A DNA stretch of 54,579 nucleotides from an uncultured Bacteroidota bacterium. GTDB lineage: Bacteria > Bacteroidota > Bacteroidia > B-17B0 > Aurantibacillaceae. The first letter of the stretch is position 1. Every line of letters starts with the position of its first letter. Below, piece by piece: positions 730-17,474 of the stretch. The translations under genes were made by a program, and so were the position numbers. The stretch lies in assembly GCA_903834765.1 (NCBI GenBank), contig CAILKE010000054.1, positions 1 to 54,579 on the forward strand. Reading direction: 5' to 3'. The notes beneath the pieces were generated by a model, which was not told the origin of the DNA, made no database searches, and worked only from the letters and a program-made list of their open reading frames with translations.

Positions 730-1152
730 ATGAACACGTTTACTAAAACATCAATTACCACAGAACTAGCAAAACAAATGCTTGATGCAGCAACCACAAA
801 AGCGGAAGAAATTGGATTTGCAATTGCAATAACCATCATTGATGAAAGCGGGAACTTAAAAGCATTTTCTAGAATGGACAATGCTCCTTTAATTGCCATT
901 GATGCCTCGCGTAAAAAAGCAGTAACTGCAGTTGGTTTTGGTTTCCCTACAGGCGATGCTTGGTATAATTTTATTAAAGATGATCCTATTTTAAATGATG
1001 GTGCTCATAACTTAAAAGATTTTATTTTATTGGGTGGTGGTTCTCCTATCACTATTGATGGAACCATTGTTGGCGCTGTTGGTGTAAGTGGTGGTCATTA
1101 TAAGCAAGATGAGCAATGCATGAATGCTGCTTTAAGCTTATTAGCAAAATAA
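730..1152 (+). CDS. GlcG/HbpS family (PF03928-like) protein
   Basis: This 140-aa protein has the GlcG/HbpS fold signature: an N-terminal helix, then IDESGNLKAFSRMDNAP, a conserved DASRKKAVTAV helix, and a glycine-rich end (LLGGGSPITIDGTIVGAVGVSGG). The length is usual for the family. Members bind haem or small molecules; Streptomyces HbpS is a redox/haem accessory sensor that controls the kinase SenS. No signal peptide is visible, so it should act in the cytoplasm, unlike secreted HbpS. The stop codon is 12 bp before the start of a large sensor kinase on the same strand, so the two are probably co-transcribed. A role as sensory partner of that kinase is inferred from this context and is not shown by the sequence. 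Confidence 0.85.
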   Translation: MNTFTKTSITTELAKQMLDAATTKAEEIGFAIAITIIDESGNLKAFSRMDNAPLIAIDASRKKAVTAVGFGFPTGDAWYNFIKDDPILNDGAHNLKDFILLGGGSPITIDGTIVGAVGVSGGHYKQDEQCMNAALSLLAK

Positions 1153-1164
1153 TAAGGTTAATAT

Positions 1165-4100
1165 ATGGATAATGAGTTAATAAGTACCTTGTCAAGTATT
1201 GAGAAATTGGTAATTAGTTTTACCAATTTAGATAGTTATGAAATGCTCATTAATACTATTAAAGTTCAAATTGATTTAGTTGCAGAGCATGATACAACAG
1301 GGTTATACTTATTTGATGAAAAGGTAAATAAATTAAAATTATTTTACGCAAAAGGTTTTTCGCTCGAAGAAAAAATTCTTGCTGAGTCAACTGCTTTGGA
1401 AAGGCATCCAGGGCATGTATATAGAACCGGTGAAATTTTATGGGTAGATGATCAAGATGCTGAACATAATCCTGTTTCAATTGACTCTATTAAAAAATCG
1501 CATACACGTTCTCGTATTTACGTTCCGGTAAAATCTAATGATGTGATTATTGGTGCCTTTGGTATACAAAGCGAAAAGCCATATGCATTTACCGAAAAAC
1601 ATTTGGCTGTTTTAAAAGTATTTGCCTCTTTAGCTGGAGATGCCTACTCAACAATAAAAAAGAACAACATCCTTAAACAACAAAACGAAGAAAATAAAAA
1701 ACTGTCATATCTTGCTAGAAATACACCAAACAATGTTATTTACGCAGATAAAGATGGTAAAATAACTTGGGTAAACACGTTTTTTGAAGAATTTACAGGC
1801 TATCATTTAAATGAAATAATAGGGAAAACTCCGGGTAGTTTTTTAACTGGACCTGAAACTGAACCCGAAAAAACAAACGAATTAAGAATAGCCGTTCAAA
1901 ACCAAACTTCATGTGAACTAACCATTACAAATTATAAAAAAAATGGTCAATTGTATAAAATTGCTATACAAATGAACCCGGTTTTTAATGAAAATGGCGA
2001 GTTTGTTTATTTTATTTCTATACAACAAGATGTAACTGAATTAGACAATAAAAATAAAAAAATTGCTGACAATCAAATTCAGTTGCAAGCTAATCTTAAA
2101 AAGTTAACTGAGTCCCAAAAACGCTATAGTAATTTATTGCAAATTACAAATGATTTAATTACCTCTTATGATGGAAACGGCAACATCATATTTGCAAATA
2201 CTTCGTGGCTCAATAACATGAATTATACATTAAGAGAAGTTTTGGGTACAAATATATTTGGCTACATCCATCCTGATTCTCAGCAACATTGTATGGCTTT
2301 TTTTGGCGAGATAAGCAATGGCCAGTATAATAGACTGGATGTTGCGTATAGCTTAATTAATAAAGCTGGTGAGAAAATTGACATTGAAGGAAATGTAATT
2401 TGTAGTTATGAAAATAATAAACTGGTTGAGATAAACTCTTTCTTAAAAGATGTCACAGAAATTAATCGCGCTAAAAAAGAAGAACAAAGGAAAACATTCG
2501 AATTAAATCAAAATAAAGAAAAATTAGAAAGTGTGATGGGCTCTTTAAACGAAACTGTTTGGGGAGTGAGTTTACCAGATTATAAATTAGAGTACATTAG
2601 TGAATCAGCCGTTTCGTTATATGAAACGCCTTTAGATGTTTGGCATACAAATACTAATTTTTGGTCAGATGTAATTTTTGCTGATGACAAAGAAAGAGTA
2701 TTAAAAGAAACGGAAGCTTTATTTACTGTTGGACATACTAATTTAGAATATAGAATTGTTACTCCTGATAATAAAATAAAATGGATTTATAGCAATACGA
2801 GAGTGCTTAAAAATGAAAATGGCGTTCCTTATTTAATGACAGGGATTTCGGGAGATATTACTTCCAGAAAATTAGCAGAAAATGAATTATTTAATAAAAA
2901 TATAGAATTAAAGAAAAATAAAGATAAATTAGAAAGTGTGATGGGCACTTTAACCGAAAGTGTTTGGGGAATAAGTTTGCCTGATTATAAACTTGTTTAC
3001 ATGAGTGAATCTACTGTTGCGTTATATGAAATTCCAATAGAAAATTTTCATGCAAATGTTAATTTATGGGCAGAAGTAATACATCCTGATGACAAAGAAA
3101 GAATATCAAAAGAATCGGAAGCTGTTTTTTCTTTTGGAACAAATAGTATGGAATATAGAATTATTACTCCTTCAAATAAGGTAAAATGGGTTTATAGCAA
3201 TACAAAAATTCTTAAAAACGAACAAGGTGTTCCTTATTTACTTGCAGGTATTACGGGAGATATTACTGCCAAAAAATTAGCAGAACAGCAATTACTTCAC
3301 TACAAAACTGCTATTGATGAATCAGCCATTGTTAGTATTACCGATGTAAATGGAATTATTACTTATGCTAACGATAAATTTTGCGAAATTTCTAAATATT
3401 CAAAACAAGAATTAATTGGAGCTTCTCATAATTTAATTAATTCGAATTATCATTCAAAAGAATTTTTTAATGACATGTGGCAAACAATTTCAACAGGTCA
3501 TATTTGGAAAGGTGAAATTAAAAACAGAGCAAAAGATGGATCAGAATATTATGTAGAATCTACCATCGTTCCTTTTATGGAAAATGGTAAGCCATTTCAA
3601 TATATTGCTATTCGCTATGAATCTACCAACCTTAAGTTAAAGGAAGAAGCTATTTCAAAACAAAAATTATTTTACGAAAATATATTAAATAATACACCTG
3701 TGGATATTGTAGTATTTGATAAAAATTACAAATATGTTTTTGTAAATAAAGAAGCGATTAAAGATGATGAAACCAGAAAATGGATTATTGGTAAAGATGA
3801 TTTTGATTATGCTGAATATAAAAATTTACCAAAATCATTTGGGATAAGAAGAAGAGAAATTTATACTAAAATAAATGAAATTAATAATTTATCAATTTGG
3901 CTTGATGAACATGAAAAAAATGGAAATATAGTTTACAAAGAAAGAAGACTATATGGTTTTAAAGATCAAGATATAGTAATTGGCATTGGTTTAGATGTTA
4001 CTGATTTAAAAAAGCACGAATTTTTATTAGCAGAATCTTTAGTCGAAAAAGAAACCTTATTAGGAGAAGTTCATCATCGTGTTAAAAATAATTTAGCAAT

Positions 4101-4683
4101 TATTGATGGCATGGTGGAGTTAAAAAAGATTAGAGAAACTAATCCGCAATTGAGAGATGTACTTTCAGATATTCAATCTCGAATAAAAACGGTAGCCTTG
4201 GTGCATCAAAAGCTGTATCAAAGCGCCATGTTTTCGAGCATCAAAATGGGAGATTATATTTTAGAACTTATAGGATACCATAAAAAAATATTAAGTAAAA
4301 CGGCTTTAGATAAGTTTATATCTAATGTAACTGTAGTGGATATTTATACTGATATCTCTAAGGCTGTAACGTTTGGACTCATATTTAATGAATTATTATC
4401 TAATAGTTTTAAATATGGCATTACAAATGACTATTTGGAAATTACTATAACGATGAAAGTAATTGATGACAAGGTGTTTTTTACGTATAAAGATTCAGGG
4501 AAAGGTTTGTTTTCTGAAACACCTAATAATTCTGGTTTTGGTTTAAGTCTTATTAATACCTTGTCTAAACAATTAAAGGGAATAATTAATTATCCAAAAG
4601 CGAATCATTTTTTAGTTGAAATAGAATTTCCTATAAAAAACATAAAGCAAAATATAGATACAGAAGCGAATGTTATAAATTAA
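1165..4683 (+). CDS. Multi-PAS/GAF HisKA_2 sensor histidine kinase
   Basis: This is a 1172-aa soluble kinase with no membrane segment. Order of parts: a GAF-like domain (~20-165), PAS (~180-295), a short coiled coil, PAS (~322-435), two nearly duplicated PAS_3-like domains (~452-575 and ~587-710), PAS (~712-830), PAS (~845-960), then HisKA_2 with GEVHHRVKNNL (H970/H971; the His next to Arg is the likely phosphoacceptor) and an HATPase domain with NELLSNSFKYG and DSGKGL. The last PAS starts with NNTPVDIVVFDKNYKYVF, a module also found in the kinase at 15118. No receiver gene follows; the next gene converges from the other strand. The adjacent GlcG/HbpS-like gene suggests haem, redox or small-molecule input. 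The partner regulator is unknown, possibly one of the receivers in the island. Confidence 0.93.
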   Translation: MDNELISTLSSIEKLVISFTNLDSYEMLINTIKVQIDLVAEHDTTGLYLFDEKVNKLKLFYAKGFSLEEKILAESTALERHPGHVYRTGEILWVDDQDAEHNPVSIDSIKKSHTRSRIYVPVKSNDVIIGAFGIQSEKPYAFTEKHLAVLKVFASLAGDAYSTIKKNNILKQQNEENKKLSYLARNTPNNVIYADKDGKITWVNTFFEEFTGYHLNEIIGKTPGSFLTGPETEPEKTNELRIAVQNQTSCELTITNYKKNGQLYKIAIQMNPVFNENGEFVYFISIQQDVTELDNKNKKIADNQIQLQANLKKLTESQKRYSNLLQITNDLITSYDGNGNIIFANTSWLNNMNYTLREVLGTNIFGYIHPDSQQHCMAFFGEISNGQYNRLDVAYSLINKAGEKIDIEGNVICSYENNKLVEINSFLKDVTEINRAKKEEQRKTFELNQNKEKLESVMGSLNETVWGVSLPDYKLEYISESAVSLYETPLDVWHTNTNFWSDVIFADDKERVLKETEALFTVGHTNLEYRIVTPDNKIKWIYSNTRVLKNENGVPYLMTGISGDITSRKLAENELFNKNIELKKNKDKLESVMGTLTESVWGISLPDYKLVYMSESTVALYEIPIENFHANVNLWAEVIHPDDKERISKESEAVFSFGTNSMEYRIITPSNKVKWVYSNTKILKNEQGVPYLLAGITGDITAKKLAEQQLLHYKTAIDESAIVSITDVNGIITYANDKFCEISKYSKQELIGASHNLINSNYHSKEFFNDMWQTISTGHIWKGEIKNRAKDGSEYYVESTIVPFMENGKPFQYIAIRYESTNLKLKEEAISKQKLFYENILNNTPVDIVVFDKNYKYVFVNKEAIKDDETRKWIIGKDDFDYAEYKNLPKSFGIRRREIYTKINEINNLSIWLDEHEKNGNIVYKERRLYGFKDQDIVIGIGLDVTDLKKHEFLLAESLVEKETLLGEVHHRVKNNLAIIDGMVELKKIRETNPQLRDVLSDIQSRIKTVALVHQKLYQSAMFSSIKMGDYILELIGYHKKILSKTALDKFISNVTVVDIYTDISKAVTFGLIFNELLSNSFKYGITNDYLEITITMKVIDDKVFFTYKDSGKGLFSETPNNSGFGLSLINTLSKQLKGIINYPKANHFLVEIEFPIKNIKQNIDTEANVIN

Positions 4684-4697
4684 ATTTCAAATAAAAT

Positions 4698-6431: not shown

Positions 6432-6492
6432 ATTTATTTTTATAAATATTGAATTATATTTTTAATTAAGCACGCTGAGGTTTTTTCTTTAT

Positions 6493-6888
6493 TTAGTTTT
6501 CAAGAGAAGATAAAACATGATTTTTTAGTTCTTCAAAGTCCCATGGTTTAGTTATGTATCCTTTTATTGCGATATCATGTTCGACTTCTTTTATTTTATG
6601 TTCAGATTCTCCTGTTAAAATAAATTTTTCAGAGTTAGGAAATATATCATGTAAATGTTTAATAATATCTAATCCTGTTATATCATCTAAATGATAGTCG
6701 GTAATAATTAAATCTATATTTGCTTTATTAGTATGATATTCATTAATAATTGAAAAAGCCTCATTTCCTGTTGAAGCGCATTCAATAATATAATTATCCT
6801 CATTTAAAAAAAGAGATAATTGCATTTTTAATGATTCTAAAATAATAAATTCATCATCTATTATTAAGATAACTTTATTAGTTTTCAT
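6493..6888 (-). CDS. Stand-alone receiver-domain response regulator
   Basis: A single REC domain of 131 aa with no output domain. Acidic-pocket residues D11/D12, phosphoacceptor D64 in IITDYHLDD, T92 in ILTGES and K114 in YITKPW are all present, so it should be phosphorylatable. The TKPW ending resembles receivers of the RpfG/HupR type. Its start overlaps the end of the preceding receiver gene by 11 bp, so translation is probably coupled. It is the last of six clustered signalling genes and is likely a target of the GAF/PAS kinase two genes upstream. With no output domain it must act through protein contact or phosphotransfer. Confidence 0.93.
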   Translation of the reverse strand: MKTNKVILIIDDEFIILESLKMQLSLFLNEDNYIIECASTGNEAFSIINEYHTNKANIDLIITDYHLDDITGLDIIKHLHDIFPNSEKFILTGESEHKIKEVEHDIAIKGYITKPWDFEELKNHVLSSLEN

Positions 6889-7276
6889 ATATAGAAAGCG
6901 AGTTTACTACATTTATTAAATCATTTTCCTGCCAAGGCTTTGAAATGAGTTTCAAAATAATATTTTTATCAATTAAATTAGTCGATACATCTGAAGTTAT
7001 TTGCCCAGTAAGCATAACAATATTAATATTCGGAAATTTATTTTTCAATATGTTTGCAAATTCATCCCCTTTCATACCTGGCATCAAATAATCTGATATT
7101 ACTAAAAGAATTTTTACACCGCCACTTGTCAAGGAATCAACTATTTCTAAGGCTTCGTCTGCGCTTTCAGCAAATTCTAGCAAGTATTTACTTTCAAAGT
7201 TTTTTTCTAATTGATTTCTAATTGAATCTAAAATGATTCGCTCATCGTCAACAGCTAGTATAGCTATATTATTCAT
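6878..7276 (-). CDS. Stand-alone receiver-domain response regulator
   Basis: A REC-only protein of 132 aa. D10/D11 form the acidic pocket, D62 in VISDYLMPG is the phosphoacceptor, T90 lies in MLTGQ and K113 in LISKPW. It overlaps the kinase gene upstream by 4 bp (ATGA), a classic sign of a cognate kinase-regulator pair. The second receiver follows with an 11-bp overlap. The two receivers are clearly different in sequence, so they are not a recent duplication; they may split one kinase signal to two targets. Confidence 0.94.
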   Translation of the reverse strand: MNNIAILAVDDERIILDSIRNQLEKNFESKYLLEFAESADEALEIVDSLTSGGVKILLVISDYLMPGMKGDEFANILKNKFPNINIVMLTGQITSDVSTNLIDKNIILKLISKPWQENDLINVVNSLSIYEN

Positions 7277-10194
7277 ATTTTTTGATTGTTTGGTATGTTA
7301 ATAATAAATTTAGTTTCATTGGCATTACTTATACAGGATATTAAACCGTTATGCTTTTCGATTATTTTTTTTACAATGTTTAATCCCAGTCCTGTTCCTT
7401 CTCCTCTTTTTTTAGTTGAATAAAATGCATCAAATATTTTTGGTATTACTTCATCTGGAATTTGTGGACCATTATTTGAAAATGTTATTTCATGATTATT
7501 ATTATGAAAGTTGTAGTATATTTTAATTACGCATTTGTTTCCACTGGCTTGTAATGCATTATTAATAATGTTTGTCCACACTTGTGAAAGTTCCTCTTGA
7601 TTACCATCTATATATATAGATTCATTAATTTCAATAATTACACTTGAATCGTATTTTATTTTATTCCATAATATGGTTATTACGGAGTCAATATTTTCGC
7701 GGAGGTTAAAGTTTGTAATTTCATTATTTATATTTCCATGCGAAAAATTATTAAGAGCTTTTACAACTTTACTTGCTTTTTCAACTGCAATATTTATAGT
7801 ATTTATTGATTGAAGCACTTTTATTAAATGAGATGAAAAAGAAAATAGTTGAATGTTTTTTGGATGATTTATAAAATCAATAAGCACATCATCAATTGCA
7901 TCAAAGCCTAATTCATATATTTTTCGGGCAAATAATAAGGTGTTACTTATTTGGTAGTTGCCTTTAATTAAATCAGATTCAATAGATTTAATTATTTCGC
8001 GTTCTTCTCTGGTACTTAATATTTTTGTAGGTTTTTTATAACATAAAAATAATTCGATTGATTTTTTAATGTCTTCGGCATTAATAATTGAAAGGGATTT
8101 AATTAAATCATTATTTATAGTATGACTTATATTATCATTTGAAGCTTTAATAGCACCTAATGGAGTATTTACTTCGTGGGCAATACCGGCAATTAATAAA
8201 CCTAAAGTGGCTAATTTTTCTTGATTAATTAAATCGGTTTGTAAATTTACGAGTTCATTATAGGCATGTTCTAAATTTTCATTTTTTTCTTTTAGCTCTA
8301 ACTTTGATAATTTAAGCTGTTCTGTTTCGTAAGCTAAACTTATTACATCTGAAATAGATTGAGCAAAGGCGATATCATTTTCATTGAACTCATGTTTTGT
8401 TTCAGTATATTCATTACAAATAACTCCAATAGATGCATTTGACTTGATAATTGGAATATCTAGCATGGAAACAATATTTAAAGGCCTTAAGTATGGAACT
8501 GCAAATTCAGCAGTAGCATCATGAGTTTCAGCTTCGTTTGCTGCAATAACTTCGTCTTTAGTTAGTGCTAAAAAATAGTTTGGAAAATCTTTGGCATATA
8601 AACTCATACCATCTATAATTTCATCAGTTTGCTTTACATAAATGGATTTGGTATGTATGGCATTCTTTTCTTTGTTAAATAACCATACCGAGCAACGGTC
8701 GCAATTTAGAACGGCGCTCGTTTTACGATATATAATTTCTAGCTTTTTATCAAAGGTTAAATCTTGAGAGATATTTCTTAGCTGAAGTAATATTTGTTGC
8801 TGCTGAATAAATGTTTCTTGCTTTAATTTTTCTAATGTTTCTTTTAATCTTATCTCCGTAATATCGTGCAAATACAACCTCACTGTAGTAACATTTTCTA
8901 AAAAATAGATACTGGTGTCAAAAAATTTATCGTTAAATCTAAATTCATATTTACTATTTTGCTTTCTTTTTATTACTTCATCCGTTAATTTAAAGTTAGT
9001 GCAAATATCTGAAAAGCTTGATAAATGATATTTTTCAATTTTTTCTTTGGCAACGGGATTAAGATAAACTATTTCTTTTTTCTCGTAATCTAACTCAAGC
9101 ACCGGATTTGGATTTTGCTCTGGAAATAATGCTAAATTTTTTATTTTTTTAGTTCGCTCGTTAACTTGCTGCTCTAATATAGAATTCGAATTAATTAACG
9201 CATTTTTTGATATTTCAAGTTCTTTATTTTTTTCAACTAGTGATTTATTTAAATTTTTAGAATCTTCTAAGCCTGAGGTAGCTGCTTGTTGCAAAAATAA
9301 AAATTCAGCAATATAATCTTGTTTAGGAAAATCAGTAATTTTTAAATGATAGTTTGAAATCAAATAGTTACTATTAATTAACGCATTCGCAAAAATAAAA
9401 TAGGAAGTGTTGTTATTTTTTTTTACTGAGCATTTATATTTTTGTTTTCCATCAATTGAATTAAAAAATAATAGTTTATTGTAAGTTTGTTTTTCAGATA
9501 GTAATTCGCTTGCATTAAAATGCGTATCCCAAATGAAAAAATCAGAAAAAGATTTGTTTTTAGTTATACCTTTTATTGATTTAGAATAATTATCGCCTAA
9601 TTCTATAATTTCATTTTTATCATTTATTAATAAAAAATAGGGGCAATTAAAATTAATAGATTCAAGGATGCGTTTTTCAGATTCAATTAAGGCAACGTTT
9701 TTCTTTCTTAAAATAAGTAAATCAGTCACATTTTTTGCAAGTATTTTTAAAACTCTTAATTGTTGCTCATTTAGCTTATTTGGTTTGGTATCAATAGCGC
9801 AAAGTGTACCTAGTGCAAAACCATCATCATCTACTAATGGCACACCTGCATAAAACACTATGTTTGGATTACCTGTTACTAATGGATTTTCACGAAAACG
9901 TTCGTCATCTCTTGCATCTGGCACTATTAATACCTCATCTGCTTTATTAATTGCATGAGCGCAAAAGGCAACATCCCTGCTTGTTTCTTTGGCTTCTAGG
10001 CCAACTTTTGCTTTAAACCACTGACGGTTTTCATCAATAATACTAATAACGGAAATAGGAGTTTGGCATATTTCGGATGCAATCAACGTAATATCATTGT
10101 ATGCCTGATCGTCGTCTAAGGTATCAAGTATTTGATAGCTTTTAACAGCTTGTAAGCGCTGATTTTCGTTAGTTGGTATTTCAGGCTTTTGCAT
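7273..10194 (-). CDS. GAF/PAS soluble sensor histidine kinase next to H-NOX
   Basis: This 973-aa kinase has no membrane segment. Residues ~20-165 are a GAF domain of the type seen in diguanylate cyclases and kinases (ICQTPISVISIIDENRQW, RDVAFCAHAI). A divergent PAS-like part (~170-300), a coiled coil (~310-350), a PAS (~355-460) and a second GAF (~470-625) follow. The phosphoacceptor is H673 in AGIAHEVNTPLGAI. About 110 residues of helical insert separate it from the next dimerisation helices, which is longer than usual. The HATPase domain (~830-965) has NNALQAS, SNNGPQIPDEV and the GEGTGLGLNI lid. Its ATG overlaps the stop of the H-NOX gene (TAATG), and the first receiver starts inside its last codons. 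In H-NOX operons the kinase is usually inhibited by the ferrous-NO form of H-NOX; that this applies here is inferred from the gene order. Confidence 0.93.
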   Translation of the reverse strand: MQKPEIPTNENQRLQAVKSYQILDTLDDDQAYNDITLIASEICQTPISVISIIDENRQWFKAKVGLEAKETSRDVAFCAHAINKADEVLIVPDARDDERFRENPLVTGNPNIVFYAGVPLVDDDGFALGTLCAIDTKPNKLNEQQLRVLKILAKNVTDLLILRKKNVALIESEKRILESINFNCPYFLLINDKNEIIELGDNYSKSIKGITKNKSFSDFFIWDTHFNASELLSEKQTYNKLLFFNSIDGKQKYKCSVKKNNNTSYFIFANALINSNYLISNYHLKITDFPKQDYIAEFLFLQQAATSGLEDSKNLNKSLVEKNKELEISKNALINSNSILEQQVNERTKKIKNLALFPEQNPNPVLELDYEKKEIVYLNPVAKEKIEKYHLSSFSDICTNFKLTDEVIKRKQNSKYEFRFNDKFFDTSIYFLENVTTVRLYLHDITEIRLKETLEKLKQETFIQQQQILLQLRNISQDLTFDKKLEIIYRKTSAVLNCDRCSVWLFNKEKNAIHTKSIYVKQTDEIIDGMSLYAKDFPNYFLALTKDEVIAANEAETHDATAEFAVPYLRPLNIVSMLDIPIIKSNASIGVICNEYTETKHEFNENDIAFAQSISDVISLAYETEQLKLSKLELKEKNENLEHAYNELVNLQTDLINQEKLATLGLLIAGIAHEVNTPLGAIKASNDNISHTINNDLIKSLSIINAEDIKKSIELFLCYKKPTKILSTREEREIIKSIESDLIKGNYQISNTLLFARKIYELGFDAIDDVLIDFINHPKNIQLFSFSSHLIKVLQSINTINIAVEKASKVVKALNNFSHGNINNEITNFNLRENIDSVITILWNKIKYDSSVIIEINESIYIDGNQEELSQVWTNIINNALQASGNKCVIKIYYNFHNNNHEITFSNNGPQIPDEVIPKIFDAFYSTKKRGEGTGLGLNIVKKIIEKHNGLISCISNANETKFIINIPNNQKI

Positions 10195-10745
10195 TAATTA
10201 CTCCATTCAATTTTAAAAGCATGACAATCATTAATTTCATTTTTTTCTTGAATATGAGTAATTACAACATTTTCTTTATTAAATCTTTTTCCAAGGCCTC
10301 TTAGCAAGCCAATAACCATTGGTACCATTCCTTCTCGTTTTGAGCGGTATTCTAATTCAATTGACTGTTCAGTTTCATTTCTTGTGCTAAACTGCGGTGC
10401 AACTAATTCGGGCATTATATTACTTACCCTATTGTGTAACATATCTAAATTATTTAAAAATTCAGGTAAATTATCTCCGCCTAAATCTAGCATTTCGCCA
10501 TAACCTTGTTTTGCAGTATATAAAATCCAATACTCGCCAAATGTTTCCATTACCACCGATGCTTCTGCCCCTAATACCTTAGATGCATTTTTTACTAAAG
10601 TATAAGTTAGGGCATCAGGATAGGCTTGAAGTCCAATAAAAAAATCATCTTCAAAATTAGATAATTTTTTTATTTCTGCCCATTTGTCATCGCCAAATTT
10701 ATCGCATACTAAATCTTGTATAGCTTTGTTAACTAGTCCGTACAT
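10194..10745 (-). CDS. H-NOX haem nitric-oxide-binding protein
   Basis: This 183-aa protein matches the HNOB/H-NOX family in length and motifs. It begins MYGLVNKAIQDLV. H104 in LDMLHNRV is the expected proximal haem ligand. Y133, S135 and R137 form the YxSxR motif (YRSKR) that holds the haem propionates. The residue that aligns with the distal tyrosine of oxygen-binding H-NOX (Tyr140 of the Thermoanaerobacter protein) is proline (P142), and no other distal-pocket tyrosine is evident, so it is predicted to bind NO and exclude O2. The last codon overlaps the kinase start by one base. The 63-bp gap upstream is the largest inside this cluster and could hold an internal promoter. Confidence 0.95.
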   Translation of the reverse strand: MYGLVNKAIQDLVCDKFGDDKWAEIKKLSNFEDDFFIGLQAYPDALTYTLVKNASKVLGAEASVVMETFGEYWILYTAKQGYGEMLDLGGDNLPEFLNNLDMLHNRVSNIMPELVAPQFSTRNETEQSIELEYRSKREGMVPMVIGLLRGLGKRFNKENVVITHIQEKNEINDCHAFKIEWSN

Positions 10746-10808
10746 ATTATTTTCTGATTAAGGTTTATATTTTTAATGGTTGTAAGCTATAAATTTACCA
10801 ATAAAATT

Positions 10809-11963
10809 TTAGTTTGCAGATTCCATATTATATTTAAAATTTACATTTGAAGGTGAAATCCCCATAAAAATCATATCATCTGTTTGCTCAGTATTATTCT
10901 GCCATTTTCTTAAAAACACATCTAATTCAATTTGTCTTTGCATTGGGGGCAACTCTTTAATACTGTCTAAGCAATCTAATAAGCCTTTTTTCATTAGTTT
11001 TTTAGCATGTGGTCCGCCAAATTGGTCGGTAATGCCATCAGAAAAGAAATAAAAATAATCGTCTTTTGAATAGGTCATCGACTGAAATGGAATATCTTCG
11101 ATATTATTAATAGGCAAGCCAATACTTTGCCCTTTTAAATTATGATAATGATGCTTTTTGGTAACAGAGTCAAAATGAATAAATGGACGTTTAATACCTG
11201 ATATTTCAATAATAGACTCAGTTGGTTTAACTCTAAATAAAATAATATCCAAACTATCAAATATGGTATTTTCTTTATGAACACTCGTAAAATTCCTCAT
11301 AATACTTTGATTCAACTGATTAATAATTAATCTCAGCTCTTTATGTTTTCGAGTATTACTTGTTAAAATTTCGTGACTTAAAACAGATAGAAGTGCAGCA
11401 GGTATGCCATGACCGGTGCAATCTCCAATTCCACCAACTATATCTGCATTTTTTCTGCGTGGTGCTAAAAAACAAAAATCACCACTCAATATATTTTTAG
11501 GTCTATTAATGTAAATGCTATTTTTAAATACATTTTGTATTTCTTTTCGTTGAGGAAAAATGGCTTGTTGTATTCTTTCTGCATAAATAATTGATGCAGT
11601 TAAATCATTAATGGATTCAATAATGTTTTCAAGTTCATCTGGTGAAACTGGTTTTGATAAAAACCCCTTCATATTTGTGCTAATAGCTCTTTTGTAATTT
11701 GTATCTTCGGTATTGCCCGAAATATAAATCACCGGAATAGTTCTAATTTCCTGGATTTTCTTCATCGTCTCAATGCCATCTAACGAGTCCTCCAATCTAA
11801 TATCCATTAATATTAAATCTGCAGTGTTTGTTTTAAAGAACTCAATAGCATCCCAACCATTTTCAAAGCAGCCAACAACCTCATGTCCTAAATTTGATAC
11901 GTGCAATTTATGCAATTCTTGTATAATATAGTCGTCTTCGACAATAACAATTCTTTTTTTCAT
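10809..11963 (-). CDS. Receiver-PP2C (SpoIIE/RsbU-type) serine phosphatase
   Basis: This 384-aa protein is a response regulator whose output is a phosphatase. The REC domain (1-120) has E9/D10/D11, phosphoacceptor D54 in ILMDIRLED and K104 in LSKPVS. After a linker helix, the PP2C domain (~150-375) carries the metal-site motifs GDFCFL, GDCTGHGIPAALL, FFSDGITDQFG and QTDDMIF. RsbU/SpoIIE phosphatases dephosphorylate anti-anti-sigma (STAS) proteins in partner switching, or similar phosphoproteins. No STAS or RsbW-like gene is visible in the window, so the substrate is unknown. It starts 2 bp after the upstream PAS kinase gene, its likely phosphodonor. The REC domain is closely similar to the receiver at 16742. 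Confidence 0.93.
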   Translation of the reverse strand: MKKRIVIVEDDYIIQELHKLHVSNLGHEVVGCFENGWDAIEFFKTNTADLILMDIRLEDSLDGIETMKKIQEIRTIPVIYISGNTEDTNYKRAISTNMKGFLSKPVSPDELENIIESINDLTASIIYAERIQQAIFPQRKEIQNVFKNSIYINRPKNILSGDFCFLAPRRKNADIVGGIGDCTGHGIPAALLSVLSHEILTSNTRKHKELRLIINQLNQSIMRNFTSVHKENTIFDSLDIILFRVKPTESIIEISGIKRPFIHFDSVTKKHHYHNLKGQSIGLPINNIEDIPFQSMTYSKDDYFYFFSDGITDQFGGPHAKKLMKKGLLDCLDSIKELPPMQRQIELDVFLRKWQNNTEQTDDMIFMGISPSNVNFKYNMESAN

Positions 11964-11965
11964 TT

Positions 11966-13333
11966 TTATGTGTTAAATTCTAGTTCAAATTCAAAGTTTT
12001 TGGATACAGGTAGTTTGTAAGAGGCATTTAATTGTTTTATTAAACTTTCAATTAATTTAAATCCAAAACTTCCAGACTTTAAATCCATCACATTAATTGG
12101 TAATCCTTTACCCGAATCGGTATATTTCATTCTAAATTTATTATCAACAAGTGATATAGTCATTTCAATAATTAAGTTTGATTTATTATTATCATATTTA
12201 TAACTGTTATAAATGAGTTCACTTATTATTAATCCAAAATGTATTGACTTTACTGAGCTTAACATAACTTCGTCATTTATGTTTAACTTAAAATCAATTG
12301 TTTTTACATTTTCATTATAAAATTTTCTTCTAAAATAATGTGCTATTTCAGTTATGTAATTTTTAACGTCTATTGAATTAATATTTTCATTTTGATTATT
12401 TTTTTGATATACTAATGCAATGCTTTTAATTTTTAATTGTATGCCCGAAAGCTTGTCTAATGTTAACTCATCGCTTAATTTTATTTTATTTATTTCAATA
12501 ATGCTATCTATTACATTAAGGTTATTATTTATAAGATGATTATAATTGTGAATATATGAAGTTTTTTCTTGTAACTTAAACTCTGTATCACATAATTTTA
12601 AATGTTGTTTCGTATTATCAATTATATTGACCGAAATAAGAGGCTTATCTTTATTAATTAGTAAAAAGTTAATAGTTAAGTTTGAAATACTATTTGAATT
12701 TGTATTTAATAATTCCCAATCATAGGTAGTATTATCAGTTGCGTTTATTTCTTTTATAATTTTTACATCAATAAAATCAAATACTTCTTCAATATTTTTT
12801 TTATTAAGGTTTTTACTTAAATAAAATTTAGAAATATCATTAAAACACTTTATTTCAAATTTTTCATTTAACGCATTATATTCAAATAATAGCAATCCGA
12901 TATTATTTGAATCTATAATTGTATTTAATAATTTTTCGTTTATTTCAATTTGCTTTAACTGTTCAAAAAAAGGAAGTTTATCCTCACAATAATTAATAAT
13001 ATAATCGTTGCCTTTACTATCCTTTGTTTTAAATGAATTTAATGTTAATGAAATAATTGTACCTTCTTTTTTTATGAAATCAAGGTTAAAATTTGTGATA
13101 CTATTTTTTGTATCAAAATGGGAGATGTATGATTCTTTAATATTATTATAATAAAGTTCATTTATTGGTAATATCAATAATTCTTCTTTGTTTGAATACC
13201 CCAATTTTTTAGAAAAATCATCGTTACAGTTTAACACATTCCCCTTCATGTCACACAAAAAAAAGCCACTATTTAGGTTGCTAAATTTGAAATTTGATAT
13301 TGTGTCAGGAATTAACTGCATGATTAAGTTCAA
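11966..13333 (-). CDS. PAS sensor kinase with atypical HisKA_2 motif
   Basis: This 455-aa soluble protein has a PAS domain (~14-118; FFLCDMKGNVLNCNDDFSKK), a second PAS-like region (~130-245) and a HisKA_2/HATPase core (~252-452). The HATPase part is intact: ISELIYNSYKY, DSGKGLP and SFGFKLIESL. The phosphoacceptor box is unusual. Where relatives have HHRVKNNL, this protein has NHLINNNL: H266 is kept, but the neighbouring Arg and Lys are lost. It could be a working kinase with relaxed sequence, or a binding partner with weak activity. It is the first gene of the minus-strand operon, 2 bp before the REC-PP2C gene. A second possible start lies 4 codons in, at 13321; I kept the longer form. Confidence 0.85.
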   Translation of the reverse strand: MNLIMQLIPDTISNFKFSNLNSGFFLCDMKGNVLNCNDDFSKKLGYSNKEELLILPINELYYNNIKESYISHFDTKNSITNFNLDFIKKEGTIISLTLNSFKTKDSKGNDYIINYCEDKLPFFEQLKQIEINEKLLNTIIDSNNIGLLLFEYNALNEKFEIKCFNDISKFYLSKNLNKKNIEEVFDFIDVKIIKEINATDNTTYDWELLNTNSNSISNLTINFLLINKDKPLISVNIIDNTKQHLKLCDTEFKLQEKTSYIHNYNHLINNNLNVIDSIIEINKIKLSDELTLDKLSGIQLKIKSIALVYQKNNQNENINSIDVKNYITEIAHYFRRKFYNENVKTIDFKLNINDEVMLSSVKSIHFGLIISELIYNSYKYDNNKSNLIIEMTISLVDNKFRMKYTDSGKGLPINVMDLKSGSFGFKLIESLIKQLNASYKLPVSKNFEFELEFNT

Positions 13334-13377
13334 ATGTAGAGATTATAAAACGGCATTATTTTAATATAACCTTGTTT

Positions 13378-13458
13378 TTCCATTTTATGGAATAATGAAG
13401 ATTGTCTTTTAAATAAGATGTATAATTTTTTTTCATTAAGGATTCCATATTGTGGAAT
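13378..13458. promoter_or_regulatory. Paired palindromes TTCCA-N5-TGGAA in divergent spacer
   Basis: Two inverted repeats lie in the 193-bp spacer between divergent genes: TTCCATTTTATGGAA at 13378-13392 and ATTCCATATTGTGGAAT at 13442-13458. Arm sequence and 5-bp spacing are the same in both, and the centres are 65 bp apart, about six helical turns. This is the arrangement expected for a dimeric regulator that binds two operators. The nearest genes are the PAS kinase operon on the minus strand and the small lipoprotein-like ORF on the plus strand. The regulator is unknown. Confidence 0.5.
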
Positions 13459-13526
13459 TTTTTTGTATTCAGGGATTTATTAATTATTAAATAGATATTT
13501 TTATCGACATAAATAATGTTTTCAAT

Positions 13527-13778
13527 TTGAACTGGATGTATTTAATAAAATTAATAGTATGTTTTTTGTCCCTATTTTTCATTTGGAGTTGTAAAAATAG
13601 TAAAAAATTCAATAATAGCCTATCACTTAATAAATTATCCAATTACAATTTTTTTGATAAATATCTATATATAAAGGGGGGAGATAGTATTTTTATTAAA
13701 AAATTTCAAGGCGTAGGAATAGATAATACCGTTTATTTAAATTTCTTTAAATACTCCATTACTAATTTCTACCAATGA
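13527..13778 (+). CDS. Small putative lipoprotein, unrecognised
   Basis: An 83-aa reading frame with a hydrophobic N-terminus (MYLIKLIVCFLSLFFIWSC) that ends in a cysteine followed by KNSKK, like a lipobox with Trp-Ser before the Cys. The remainder is rich in Asn, Phe, Tyr and Lys and has no known motif. AT content is very high, so chance cannot be excluded. Its stop codon overlaps the start of a second short frame with a membrane helix (ATGA), which supports real translation. I do not recognise it. Confidence 0.45.
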   Translation: MNWMYLIKLIVCFLSLFFIWSCKNSKKFNNSLSLNKLSNYNFFDKYLYIKGGDSIFIKKFQGVGIDNTVYLNFFKYSITNFYQ

Positions 13779-13879
13779 ATTTGAAAAAAGCCTTTAAATA
13801 TGAATTAAATAGCCTAGGTTGGATTGGCTTTTTTGTATTCTTAGCTATTATAATAGTACGTTGTAAAATTCAACATTAA
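13775..13879 (+). CDS. 34-aa single-helix membrane peptide
   Basis: A short frame that encodes MNLKKAFKYELNS, a hydrophobic helix (LGWIGFFVFLAIIIV) and a basic tail (RCKIQH). A positively charged start followed by one helix is the layout of small bacterial membrane proteins. The ATG overlaps the TGA of the preceding lipoprotein-like frame, so the two may be translated together. No family is recognised and the function is unknown. It is too short to be certain. Confidence 0.4.
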   Translation: MNLKKAFKYELNSLGWIGFFVFLAIIIVRCKIQH

Positions 13880-13985
13880 TAATTTAGACAAATGAAATAG
13901 CCATGTTTGCCGAAACACAAACACCAATTATTAAACTGGCTATACCATATGGTAAATAAAAAACAATAATTTAGACATATGAAAA
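13878..13985 (+). repeat. Direct repeat of the FIST gene start region
   Basis: AATAATTTAGACAAATGAAAT at 13878-13898 recurs at 13965-13985 with two differences; the second copy contains the real start codon of the FIST gene. The first copy also has ATG-AAA, but a stop codon follows at once. Between the copies lie an inverted pair (ATAGCC/GGCTAT), the palindrome CCATATGG, and an 18-codon frame (13903-13959; MFAETQTPIIKLAIPYGK). This looks like a duplicated leader; whether it regulates translation is unknown. Confidence 0.5.
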
Positions 13986-15121
13986 TTAAGCAGTTGGTAT
14001 TTAATAATGAAGAAGATTTTATAAAAGCAATTTCTGATGGAGAATTGTCACATTTCGATTTTCATTTTCTTTTTGCCGATAATGTTTTTTTAGGTAATAA
14101 ACAATTGCAATTAACTATTAAAAATGTGTTTAAAAATACAATTTTAATGGGTTGTTCAACTGCAGGAGAAATTGGATTAAAGAAATTGTGCGAAGGAACT
14201 ATCGTTTTAACATCTGTTAAATTTGAGAAAACAATTCTAAAAAAAGTTTCATGTTTAATTAATGATTCTTTGGATTCATTTTCTGCTGGTGAAAATCTTG
14301 CTAATCAATTACTTAATGATAATTTAAAACATGTTTTTATATTATCAGATGGTATTAATGTTAATGGAAGTAAATTAATTGATGGGTTTAATTCCGTTTA
14401 TTCGGCATATAATATAAATATTTCTGGCGGTTTAGCTGCTGATAATACTAGTTTTAGTAAAACATTTGTCGCCGATTCAAATAATAATTTCGTTACAAAT
14501 TGTATTACTGCTTTAGGTTTTTATGGTGATGATATTCAGATCAATACAGGTTCGTTTGGAGGTTGGGATAGTTTTGGTATTGATAGAATCGTAACTAAAA
14601 GTCACGAAAATATAATCTATGAAATTGATGGTATTTCTGCATTAGAATTATACAAAAATTACCTAGGTGATTTATCGAGAGATTTACCAGCATCTGCATT
14701 ATTATTCCCAATTGAAATGCAGGAAAACCTTTTATCAGAAAAACTAGTTCGGACAATATTGGGCGTTAATGAAAGTAATGGTAGTATAACGTTTGCCGGA
14801 AGTATTCCTGAAGGTTCTATTATTAGATTAATGAGAACTAACATCGAAAATGTTATTAATGGTGCTAAAACAGCTGCTAAAATTACAAAAAACGATATTA
14901 TTGAAGATGCGAAGTTAGTCATACTAGTTAGTTGTGTTGGAAGGAAGTTAGTTCTAACACAATTAACTCAAGAGGAAATTGATGCAGTTACTTCAGAATT
15001 TGAAGAAGATGTTGTGTTTACTGGTTTTTATTCCTATGGGGAGCTTTCTAAATTAAAAAACGAAAATTTATGCAGCTTGCATAATCAAACAATGACAATA
15101 ACTGCCATTTCTGAATCATGA
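13979..15121 (+). CDS. FIST N/C domain sensory protein
   Basis: This 380-aa protein spans a complete FIST_N (~30-215) and FIST_C (~220-360). Diagnostic segments are ILMGCSTAGEIG, LSDGINVNGSKLIDGF, NISGGLAADNTSF, ALGFYGDDIQINTGSFGGWD, LYKNYLGD and VVFTGFYSYGELS. FIST is a sensory input domain thought to bind small ligands, perhaps amino acids, and it is usually encoded near kinases or cyclases. No signal peptide is present, so it should be cytoplasmic. The stop codon overlaps the ATG of the next kinase gene (ATGA), which strongly suggests that it supplies the signal to that kinase. The ligand is unknown. Confidence 0.93.
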   Translation: MKIKQLVFNNEEDFIKAISDGELSHFDFHFLFADNVFLGNKQLQLTIKNVFKNTILMGCSTAGEIGLKKLCEGTIVLTSVKFEKTILKKVSCLINDSLDSFSAGENLANQLLNDNLKHVFILSDGINVNGSKLIDGFNSVYSAYNINISGGLAADNTSFSKTFVADSNNNFVTNCITALGFYGDDIQINTGSFGGWDSFGIDRIVTKSHENIIYEIDGISALELYKNYLGDLSRDLPASALLFPIEMQENLLSEKLVRTILGVNESNGSITFAGSIPEGSIIRLMRTNIENVINGAKTAAKITKNDIIEDAKLVILVSCVGRKLVLTQLTQEEIDAVTSEFEEDVVFTGFYSYGELSKLKNENLCSLHNQTMTITAISES

Positions 15122-16749
15122 TACAAACGAATTTTCATAGACTATTAAATAGGCAAATTAAGGAATTTAAGATTTTGGAAGATTTTACGCCTGATAATTT
15201 TTCCAATTTTTTGGTTTCCATTGATAAGTCTTATAAAGATTATGATAGAGATTTTTCGATTTCAGAAAGGTCTTTAATTGAAAGTTCAAAGGAGTTAGTT
15301 TCATCAAATAATAAATTAAATAATTTATTGTCTTCTAAAGATTTATTAATTTTAAAAAAGGCCTCATCTTTAAAAAAACTAGCTTCTAATTTAGAGAATG
15401 CTGAAAGAATTGCTGGTTTAGGTAATTTCAATATAAATTTACCCGATAATTCAATAGAATTATCATCACAATTATGTGATTTATTGAAATTATCAAAACA
15501 ACATATTATTGATAACATTGATGATTTTTTAGAAATATTTCAAAATGCGGCTGAGATAAAATCTATAATTTATAATTCAATACAAAATAAAGCTAGGTTT
15601 AGAATCGAAAAAGTTTGCTTAATAAATGATTCGAGATATTTTACTATTGAGGGAGTATTTTCAAAAGATACCGAAAGTGAAATTTCATTTTTAACTTGTG
15701 TCATTCAAGATATTACAAGTTATGTGCTTTCTGAAGAAAATAATAATAGAATTAAAGAATTTTATGAATCTATTTTAAATAACATTCCAGTTGATATTGC
15801 GGTTTTTAACAAAGAACATAAATATTTATTTCTTAATCCTATTGCAGTTCAAAATAAAGATGTACGAGAGTTTTTAATAGGTAAGGATGATTTTGATTAC
15901 TGCAAACATTATAATAAAGATATTTCAATTGCCCAAAAACGTCGGGATTTTTTTTTAGATGTTTTAACTAAAAATAAAAATGTTGAATTTGTTGATCAGT
16001 CAATAACTGCAGATGGAAAAGTTGTGTATCGTTTAAGGCGATTTTCTCCTATTTATAAAGAGAATAATGAGTTTTTGTTTATGATTGGTTTTGGTATAGA
16101 TATTACCGAAAAAATGGAACAAGAATTAAGATTACAAGAATCCTTAGAAGAAAAGAAAAGTTTATTAGGTGAAATTCATCATCGTGTAAAAAATAATTTA
16201 GCATTAGTATCAGGCCTTGTTGAATTACAGGGTTCTAAAATTACTGATGAAAAAATGAAAATTCACCTTACCGATATTCAGCATAGGATTTCTGCAATGT
16301 CATTAATTCATGAAAAATTATATAAATCTTCAAATTTCTCAAAAATTGATTTAAAAGATTATTTACATGATTTAATTTCATCACTTAGTTTATTTTTTAA
16401 TAAAGGTGGTAAAGTAGAAGTTAACTTTGAGTTAGAGCAAATTTTTGTTACAAATAAAAAAGCAATACCTATTGCTTTAATAGTAAACGAATTAATTACT
16501 AATGCATATAAATATGCCTTTGCTGAAAATACAACAGGTATTATTGATGTTAAATTAAATTCAGTTGATAACGACATTGAGTTGTCTATTAGTGATAATG
16601 GAAATGGAATTGAAAAAGATTTTGATATTTCGACATCCGATAGTCTTGGATTTAAATTAATAAATATTTTCACAAAGCAACTTAAAGGATCGATGGAGTA
16701 TTTTAGTAATAAAGGATTAACGATTAATATAAAATTTAAAAATGGGTAA
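15118..16749 (+). CDS. PAS HisKA_2 histidine kinase, partner of FIST protein
   Basis: This 543-aa soluble kinase starts with a helical region (~30-110) that could contact the FIST protein. PAS-like segments follow (~105-205 and ~215-335). The second starts NNIPVDIAVFNKEHKYLF and is closely related to the last PAS of the kinase at 1165, including the KDDFDY motif. The HisKA_2 box is GEIHHRVKNNL (H354/H355) and the HATPase domain has NELITNAYKYAF, DNGNGI and GFKLINIF. The next gene, a receiver, starts 8 bp before its stop codon, so it is the likely cognate regulator. The chain FIST, kinase, receiver, LytTR reads as one operon. Confidence 0.93.
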   Translation: MIQTNFHRLLNRQIKEFKILEDFTPDNFSNFLVSIDKSYKDYDRDFSISERSLIESSKELVSSNNKLNNLLSSKDLLILKKASSLKKLASNLENAERIAGLGNFNINLPDNSIELSSQLCDLLKLSKQHIIDNIDDFLEIFQNAAEIKSIIYNSIQNKARFRIEKVCLINDSRYFTIEGVFSKDTESEISFLTCVIQDITSYVLSEENNNRIKEFYESILNNIPVDIAVFNKEHKYLFLNPIAVQNKDVREFLIGKDDFDYCKHYNKDISIAQKRRDFFLDVLTKNKNVEFVDQSITADGKVVYRLRRFSPIYKENNEFLFMIGFGIDITEKMEQELRLQESLEEKKSLLGEIHHRVKNNLALVSGLVELQGSKITDEKMKIHLTDIQHRISAMSLIHEKLYKSSNFSKIDLKDYLHDLISSLSLFFNKGGKVEVNFELEQIFVTNKKAIPIALIVNELITNAYKYAFAENTTGIIDVKLNSVDNDIELSISDNGNGIEKDFDISTSDSLGFKLINIFTKQLKGSMEYFSNKGLTINIKFKNG

Positions 16750-17098
16750 GAGAGTATTAATAGTAGAGGATGATCAGCTTTTGGCTCATTTAATTGAACT
16801 GTATGCTGTTAATTGTGGCTGTGAAGTTATTGGCAATGTTGATAATGGTAATGATGCAATTGCATTAGCTATTGCTGAATGTCCTGATTATATTTTGATG
16901 GATATAAGAATTGAAGGATCTATTGATGGAATTGAGACAGCCGTTTTAATAAATGAAATAAAAGATATAAAGATAATTTATATATCAGGTAATAGTGATG
17001 AGAATACATATTCTCGCGCTCAAAAAACAAACATATTGGCTTTCTTAATCAAACCAGTTAAACAAAAAGATTTAATGAAATATTTAAGTATAAACTAG
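16742..17098 (+). CDS. Stand-alone receiver protein (REC only)
   Basis: A 118-aa REC domain without output domain: E8/D9/D10 in the acidic pocket, D54 in ILMDIRIEG, S82 in YISGNSDE and K104 in LIKPVK. It overlaps the kinase gene by 8 bp and is followed after 19 bp by a separate LytTR DNA-binding protein. In most Bacteroidota REC and LytTR are fused in one protein (LytR/AlgR type); here they are two genes. The receiver closely resembles the REC part of the REC-PP2C protein at 10809, so the two branches may have arisen from one source. Confidence 0.93.
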   Translation: MGKRVLIVEDDQLLAHLIELYAVNCGCEVIGNVDNGNDAIALAIAECPDYILMDIRIEGSIDGIETAVLINEIKDIKIIYISGNSDENTYSRAQKTNILAFLIKPVKQKDLMKYLSIN

Positions 17099-17117
17099 CA
17101 TTTAAAAAATAAAAATT

Positions 17118-17474
17118 ATGAATGAATCTTCAATCTTTAAAAGTGTATCCGTATTAGGTAATTCTGTTTTTGTGAGGCAAAAAGACGGAATAGTTAAAAT
17201 TAATGTTGATGATTTAATTTACATTAAATCAAATCAGAATATGGTAATCTTACAATCTAATAATAACAGATTTATTATTAATTCTTCTTTAAGACAAGTT
17301 GAAGCTATGTTTTCAAAAAAAGGTTTTTATCGTATTAATAGATCTCATTTAGTAAAAATAAATAAAATAGATATTATTGGCAATACATTTATTATGATTA
17401 CAGGATTAAAAATAGCTATTGGTGCTGGTTATAAACGTCCGTTTTTAAATATTTTATCAATTTATAAATCATAA
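17118..17474 (+). CDS. Stand-alone LytTR DNA-binding protein
   Basis: A 118-aa protein that is almost wholly a LytTR domain: VFVRQKDGIVKINVDDLIYI near the start, then a typical FYRINRSHLVKINKI core and a basic C-terminus (GAGYKRPFL). LytTR domains bind DNA, usually at pairs of short direct repeats. It lacks a receiver domain, so the phosphorylated receiver encoded 19 bp upstream probably controls it by contact. Another possibility is constitutive binding with control by other partners. It is the last gene of the FIST operon and the only obvious transcription factor in the signalling island. Confidence 0.92.
   Translation: MNESSIFKSVSVLGNSVFVRQKDGIVKINVDDLIYIKSNQNMVILQSNNNRFIINSSLRQVEAMFSKKGFYRINRSHLVKINKIDIIGNTFIMITGLKIAIGAGYKRPFLNILSIYKS

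Follow-up and report, generated by a model that had tools for sequence, protein, structure and literature searches.

Stand-alone sensor proteins are commonly encoded beside kinases, and how each finds the right kinase is mostly an open question. It is posed by a signalling island at positions 730 to 17,474 of a contig from a freshwater Bacteroidota genome (G000; assembly GCA_903834765.1, contig CAILKE010000054.1, positions 1 to 54,579, the full 54,579-nucleotide stretch being referred to as the window), in which an HbpS/GlcG-like (DUF336) protein, an H-NOX protein and a FIST protein are each encoded just before a kinase. An earlier note on this DNA had described such pairs, and open reading frames (ORFs) and Pfam matches place all its elements where it put them: four soluble kinases, three lone receivers, a phosphatase joining a receiver to a SpoIIE-type PP2C domain (REC-PP2C) and a LytTR protein, with HbpS 12 bp from its kinase HK1, H-NOX overlapping HKnox by 1 bp and FIST overlapping HK3 by 4 bp. 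The explanation that we favor, with moderate confidence, is that these are three sensor-kinase pairs with shared outputs, in which the sensors dock on cognate N-terminal domains of their partners. If this is true, a module that is specific to its sensor and can be transferred would account for how the two are matched, allow partners to be predicted from sequence and provide interchangeable parts. It would also suggest that nitric oxide (NO) sensor families signal by way of protein phosphatases and LytTR where a GGDEF protein is not found.

A helical segment in the genes after FIST

The genes that follow FIST often open with a shared segment, predicted to be helical, whatever the type of output behind it. 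We refer to it as module A, and represented it by a profile of 86 aa made from 26 rows that were chosen by eye from genes after FIST and then aligned. Two samples were searched: 120 genomes, including G000 and 19 others of its genus, and a phylum sample of 395 genomes, in which at most 13 candidates per genome were scored for module A and from which matches in G000 and G093 were excluded to give the held-out counts. The assemblies are metagenome-assembled genomes with contig ends, ORFs were called by a simple longest-first rule, and the matches and compared pairs share ancestry and are not independent. In the 120 genomes there are 31 matches of at least 80 bits, 30 adjoining FIST and one fused to it; 29 of the 31 lie directly after FIST, and the match in G053:C8 (L254) directly follows a FIST gene cut by the contig end. 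None occurs in the 85 FIST-less genomes of this sample. Because 26 of the 31 matches belong to the model itself, whose rows were chosen for following FIST, the chief message of this search is that no other sequence in these genomes scores as high; the other five (G012, G020, G053:C8, G062 and G070) are also FIST-linked. There are 13 weaker matches (at most 57 bits), of which that in G094 adjoins FIST and that in G113:C5 has a class B FIST (see below) about 2 kb away on the opposite strand, the others having no FIST beside them. Two weak matches in G000 (E ~0.19) were set aside as unrelated by eye.

The held-out genomes repeat the pattern, with 38 of 39 matches of at least 70 bits lying directly after FIST on the same strand and, among the at most 13 candidates scored per genome, no match of this strength in the 306 FIST-less genomes. 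Between 50 and 70 bits the match in G326 is FIST-linked and those in G251 and G367 are unlinked, as are six below 40 bits. At 28 held-out loci (L272 to L299) the partners are 26 HisKA-type kinases, one HisKA_2 kinase and one unlabelled protein, with no PP2C among them. Module A is so far undescribed in the libraries and literature searched. No Pfam or NCBIfam family matched more than three of the 26 members (the best Pfam match is to Helicase_PWI, E 5.8e-5), two of the 26 touch the NCBIfam NosR model (E 0.011), and no paper on a FIST docking module was found in the literature searched, outside which most subscription papers lie.

Module and sensor also sort together on a FIST tree (43 rows; a quick tree with some long branches). 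One clade, class A, holds 33 of the 43 rows (support of 98 in the Shimodaira-Hasegawa-like approximate likelihood ratio test), including the window's FIST. A same-strand or fused partner is present for 31 of the 33 members, and module A scores 25 bits or more in every one of these 31 partners, although they differ in output: 25 are kinases (six HisKA_2, 19 HisKA or hybrid), four are PP2Cs and two are unassigned, one of the latter being cut by a contig end and the other ending just before it. The fewest changes required on the tree are two for the module and three for the output. The partners of class B FIST proteins (seven of seven) carry a different segment, module B; a search of the 120 genomes gave six matches in six genomes, each beside a class B FIST and all of them model rows, and L315 is an independent case beside FIST at 114 bits. 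Among 43 distinct genes after FIST, 32 have module A, seven module B and four neither, and the sole HNOBA count is a borderline 13-bit match. After H-NOX, 79 of 85 distinct genes have an HNOBA-like domain and none has module A or B.

Several arrangements around FIST stand apart from kinase pairs of the island's kind. One is L187 (G070:C14), where FIST, module A and a hybrid kinase are naturally fused into a single protein of 1,667 aa. At L174, L177, L178 and L190, FIST is directly followed by SpoIIE-type PP2Cs with module A, no kinase lying between. A further FIST group (L305, L306, L307 and L322, in f60/g110 genomes) precedes hybrid kinases that share another helical N-terminus by eye. At L312, L313 and L314, by eye, FIST genes stand in arrays of three to five, some of them with genes of about 110 aa in between, and the kinases after these arrays share, again by eye, yet another N-terminus.

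The H-NOX partners were followed with a local profile hidden Markov model (HMM) of the HNOBA-like domain; since the sequences behind it are themselves nine H-NOX partners, five with a Pfam HNOBA match, it shows breadth rather than an independent discovery. Pfam HNOBA is not reported in HKnox itself up to E 1. Of the 61 Bacteroidota copies of H-NOX with a gene downstream, 52 are followed by a same-strand kinase. L111 has H-NOX ahead of an HK3-type HisKA_2 kinase that carries GAF, a weak HNOBA match (17 bits) and no module A, and RECc-like and REC-PP2C genes come next; by its sequence this would be a sensor swap on an HK3-type kinase. A PP2C gene lies on the same strand within five genes of H-NOX in 12 of 63 Bacteroidota copies. 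Because PP2Cs are abundant, only the gene right upstream was scored, and it is a PP2C in seven of 62 (P ~1e-5 to 3e-7, depending on which of two background rates is assumed, the related loci being non-independent). Separately, H-NOX is directly followed, with no kinase between, by SpoIIE-type PP2Cs bearing HNOBA in L143 and L146. The earlier note had not mentioned the HNOBA-like domain of the kinase at 7273-10194.

A contact placed in a separable N-terminal part would let evolution keep sensor and contact while changing the output. We give about an even chance to the idea that FIST subfamilies are each matched to their own helical N-terminal segment for docking (module A, module B and, by eye, two or more others), forming a plug-and-socket system through which a single sensor of a gas or metabolite could directly drive HisKA kinases, HisKA_2 kinases or PP2C phosphatases. 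Its corollaries, that co-resident FIST systems are insulated from one another, that H-NOX and HNOBA form a parallel case and that both NO-sensor families feed PP2Cs, even in a genome where GGDEF was not found, seem to us equally poised between right and wrong.

Gene order, conservation and outputs of the island

The genes of the island are listed in Table 1. From HK2 through REC-PP2C, H-NOX, HKnox, RECa and RECb to the OmpA-family gene, the successive minus-strand gaps are 2, 63, -1, -4, -11 and 61 bp, and from FIST through HK3 and RECc to LytTR, the plus-strand gaps are -4, -8 and 19 bp.

Table 1. Features of the signalling island, with positions in the window
Feature	Position	Strand	Basis
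HbpS/GlcG-like (DUF336) stand-alone sensor, 140 aa	730..1152	+	Pfam PF03928 1.4e-34
HK1, GAF-multi-PAS-HisKA_2 kinase paired with HbpS-like sensor	1165..4683	+	Pfam; pair kept in L094, L095, L097
OmpA-family gene, 577 aa	4698..6431	-	Pfam OmpA 8.4e-16; kept in block in L031, L033
RECb, stand-alone receiver	6493..6888	-	Pfam Response_reg; after RECa in several relatives
RECa, stand-alone receiver	6878..7276	-	Pfam Response_reg; after H-NOX kinase in many relatives
HKnox, GAF-(HNOBA-like)-GAF-HisKA-HATPase kinase, H-NOX partner	7273..10194	-	Pfam; HisKA below cut-off
HNOBA-like domain, HKnox residues 175-348	9151..9672	-	local HMM 105 bits, E 3.7e-31
H-NOX (HNOB) with H104, YxSxR (Y133, S135, R137)	10194..10745	-	Pfam HNOB PF07700 5.4e-49
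REC-SpoIIE PP2C phosphatase (REC-PP2C)	10809..11963	-	Pfam Response_reg 1.7e-22, SpoIIE 1.8e-14
HK2, PAS-HisKA_2 kinase	11966..13333	-	Pfam; listed start TTG, ATG four codons on
FIST_N-FIST_C protein, NosP superfamily by sequence, FIST class A	13979..15121	+	Pfam 2.1e-42, 3e-34; tree
HK3, (module A)-PAS-HisKA_2 kinase, FIST partner	15118..16749	+	Pfam, module profile
Module A, HK3 residues 1-98, N-terminal, predicted helical; proposed FIST-docking module	15118..15411	+	profile covers 86 aa
RECc, stand-alone receiver	16742..17098	+	49.6% identical to REC of REC-PP2C
Stand-alone LytTR DNA-binding protein	17118..17474	+	Pfam LytTR 4e-15; LytTR after FIST-HK3-RECc in L193

G000 has one H-NOX, one HbpS-like protein and three FIST proteins in all, and under random placement the probability of HbpS lying within 10 kb of H-NOX would be ~0.006, and that of one or more FIST genes doing so ~0.016. 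Across the 120 genomes H-NOX occurs in 23, FIST in 35 and the HbpS-like protein in six. The earlier note had treated the island as a block that relatives might share as a whole; much of it is kept, but in only two of 19 genus mates (G005 and G015). The sensor-kinase pairs, whose separation in relatives would have spoken against that note, largely stay together, which supports its reading in part, and the H-NOX and FIST pairs recur more widely than the block. In G005 (L031/L094) the block retains HK2, REC-PP2C, H-NOX, HKnox, RECa, RECb, the OmpA-family gene and HK1-HbpS; it has no FIST unit, the contig ends just past HK2, and the genome's only FIST is of class B and lies elsewhere. G015 (L033/L095) retains FIST-HK3-RECc, REC-PP2C to OmpA, and HK1-HbpS, without HK2 and LytTR there. 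In G004 (L193), a genome with no H-NOX, a HisKA_2 kinase and REC-PP2C diverge from FIST-HK3-RECc-LytTR. An HK2 orthologue precedes REC-PP2C in L094, a HisKA_2 kinase holds that place in L102 and L108, and the spacing of HbpS and its kinase is 12 to 15 bp in four loci.

Could the island be a loose neighbourhood of independent two-component systems with no functional links beyond the pairs? We regard this as somewhat less likely than not. It accords with the sparse retention of the block, with the location of FIST and H-NOX units on separate contigs in G011 and G028 and with the FIST unit of G004, which stands without H-NOX. It accords less well with the distribution of HbpS, which is found in three of 20 genus genomes (G000 included) and each time in the block with main-type H-NOX (chance P ~0.0035), or with loci that join several units: L097 has the order REC-PP2C, H-NOX, HKnox, RECa, RECb, REC-PP2C, HbpS and HK1 homologue (78% over 260 aa), and L109 has an H-NOX-kinase pair immediately after a class B FIST-kinase pair. 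REC-PP2C, too, recurs with HisKA_2 kinases or H-NOX.

Similarities within the island suggest how shared outputs might be wired. The receivers fall into two groups by sequence similarity: RECa and RECb are 34.8% identical and neither matched RECc at E 1e-3, although RECb has a 30% match to the receiver of REC-PP2C. The paralogy that the earlier note had seen between the receivers at 10809 and 16742 is borne out (49.6% over 111 aa), as is that between the kinases at 1165 and 15118 (33% over 427 aa, last PAS included). Receiver similarity and operon context lead us to propose two phosphotransfer channels. In the first, HKnox would pass phosphate to RECa and RECb; in the second, the HisKA_2 kinases HK1 to HK3 would pass it to RECc and REC-PP2C, LytTR being the DNA-binding output. 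Upstream of these channels, H-NOX would bind the HNOBA-like domain of HKnox, FIST would bind the roughly 86-aa module A at the start of HK3 and the HbpS-like protein would act on HK1, and docking would then control autophosphorylation of the kinase, as reported for NosP-NosK (PMC12570481) and HnoX-HnoK (PMC8846402). The wired network envisaged by the earlier note remains an inference.

No GGDEF match was found in G000 (other cyclic di-GMP enzymes were not searched for), so output probably runs through the receivers, LytTR and the PP2C. REC-PP2C carries the motifs SGD, GDCTGHG, SDGITD and TDD, which we take to be metal sites, and G000 has 22 SpoIIE matches in all. For a STAS substrate, as a partner-switching output of this kind would require, G000 offers one match above the cut-off (a 114-aa ORF, G000:C70) and one below, neither with a link to the PP2C.

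Two further features touch the island. The OmpA-family gene, whose retention in the block the earlier note had passed over, varies in length (577, 685 and 1,055 aa across the window and L031 and L033). A small lipoprotein-like ORF (13527-13778; 83 aa, TTG start) lies in the 645 bp that separate the divergent genes HK2 and FIST.

Docking, helix or neighbour, and the possible ligands

We considered whether module A is merely a dimerisation or signalling helix that stays beside FIST as a DNA neighbour when recombination swaps the C-terminal outputs. Its predicted helical nature and the adjacency of the strong copies to FIST in the DNA would both be expected under this explanation, and the structure model (two sequences), which predicts two helices at residues 2-19 and 25-98 (predicted local distance difference test score 82, predicted template modelling score 0.46), says little about a FIST contact. 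What makes the explanation unlikely, in our judgement, is first the behavior of the segment where FIST is missing. When module and remainder were aligned separately, eight FIST-less kinases were 54 to 71% identical to FIST-linked ones outside the module but only 21 to 40% identical within it (L262, L263 and L264 were left out, and G060:C21, L265, yielded no local match). FIST-linked pairs with 50 to 60% identity outside the module have 45 to 59% within it (8 pairs), and those with at least 60% outside have 48 to 86% (6 pairs); module identities fall to 31% among pairs with 40 to 50% outside (11 pairs) and to 22 to 40% among pairs with 20 to 30% outside (36 pairs). A receiver-containing regulator of about 450 aa precedes four of the eight FIST-less kinases (L255, L257, L259 and L266), and a similar one precedes FIST in L182, L184, L197, L199 and L201; its persistence upstream of the four suggests that FIST was lost. 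Second, the two genome searches gave only one strong match away from FIST, even though G000 alone has 22 SpoIIE matches. Third, the H-NOX partners follow the same logic with a different domain, HNOBA.

Docking on cognate N-terminal domains remains the explanation that we prefer, and several observations weigh against it. The coding sequence of module A comes directly behind FIST, so that positional hitch-hiking could explain part of the link. The FIST-less kinases were collected by way of weak module matches, eight of the 12 unlinked weak matches were compared and the pairs are non-independent. The strong match away from FIST (L304, G264:C2:1126805; 75.6 bits) lies 27 kb from the only FIST of its genome, with none within 26 kb, and two Azospirillum partners have module A weakly (35 bits) or by eye only. 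The partners in L203, L209 and L269 carry neither module A nor module B, that in L209 being a PP2C directly after FIST, and many FIST proteins have partners with other N-termini or no partner. In the three HbpS-carrying genomes outside the genus (G064, G103 and G112), no kinase recognised by the models used follows HbpS, and some relatives lack LytTR or HK2 at these places.

The candidate ligands differ in part from those first proposed. In H-NOX, residues H104, Y133, S135 and R137 are invariant in 12 homologues, and the closest solved relative is Alr2278; we take H104 to be the proximal His and the YxSxR residues to have their usual H-NOX roles. A distal Tyr in the region of residues 138-146 marks O2 binders, and inspection of the sequence shows no Tyr there. 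The FIST protein, which the earlier note had called a small-molecule sensor, can be named more exactly: by its sequence it is a NosP-superfamily protein, homologous to the NosP model (NCBIfam NF041558) over residues 40-357 and scoring 68.7 bits, below the equivalog cut-off of 450. A comparison aimed at a haem ligand of FIST showed H368 kept in 38 of 40 FIST proteins and C319 and R322 in all 40, and a sequence search found no solved relative of FIST. Two of the three inputs may thus be NO, sensed by H-NOX and FIST.

The third input is less easily assigned. By hand count, the formaldehyde-contact residues of EfgA (K57, S114 and D121) align with K63, S120 and D127 of the HbpS-like protein, but such residues are largely conserved among DUF336 homologues (PMC8153426, in part; this wording marks citations that refer to portions of a paper), so the match is not diagnostic for aldehyde sensing. 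Haem is ligated by two His residues in PduOC, and HbpS has Thr at that site (PMC4923194, in part). The HbpS-like sequence, on inspection, has its first 92 residues free of His, and among solved proteins it is closest to NahX and EfgA; haem as a common ligand of all three sensors was rejected on these grounds, and the haem input that the earlier note had given to this sensor is unsupported. That note's scheme as a whole, in which haem (HbpS), NO (H-NOX) and small-molecule (FIST) inputs meet on one wired network, has in its favor that the domain names fit and that in Streptomyces the kinase SenS works together with HbpS (PMC4991794, in part), but with these HbpS features and FIST in the NosP superfamily it is quite improbable as it stands.

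Comparison with known systems

The FIST unit resembles the NosP-NahK/NosK-NosR systems, in which a FIST gene shares an operon with a soluble kinase; NosP binds and controls the adjacent kinase NosK, whose N-terminus of about 130 aa has no recognised domain (PMC12570481, in part). The window differs in its low NosP score, in the HisKA_2 type of its kinase and in the genes that come next, a receiver and LytTR rather than a cyclic di-GMP enzyme. VpsV-VpsS of Vibrio cholerae is similar in that a FIST gene lies upstream of a cytoplasmic kinase, its proposed sensing partner (PMC4398556, in part). The H-NOX-HnoK-HnoB/HnoD systems of Shewanella and Vibrio likewise join a stand-alone H-NOX to a kinase and receivers (PMC8846402, in part), but here the kinase has an HNOBA-like domain, there are two lone receivers and a REC-PP2C, and no cyclic di-GMP output is seen.

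For the HbpS-like unit the parallels are HbpS-SenS-SenR of Streptomyces, where a DUF336 sensor is paired with a kinase, and EfgA of Methylorubrum, a DUF336 sensor whose formaldehyde-contact residues are kept here; unlike these, the sensor in the window has no signal peptide apparent by eye, and its kinase is without an evident membrane part in the domain scan. The H-NOX unit recalls soluble guanylate cyclase, in which H-NOX and HNOBA are paired. Here, too, the H-NOX partner bears HNOBA (Pfam PF07701 is matched in a cyanobacterial kinase, L150, and in L036), but the domain is also carried by SpoIIE-type PP2Cs encoded directly after H-NOX (L143, L146).

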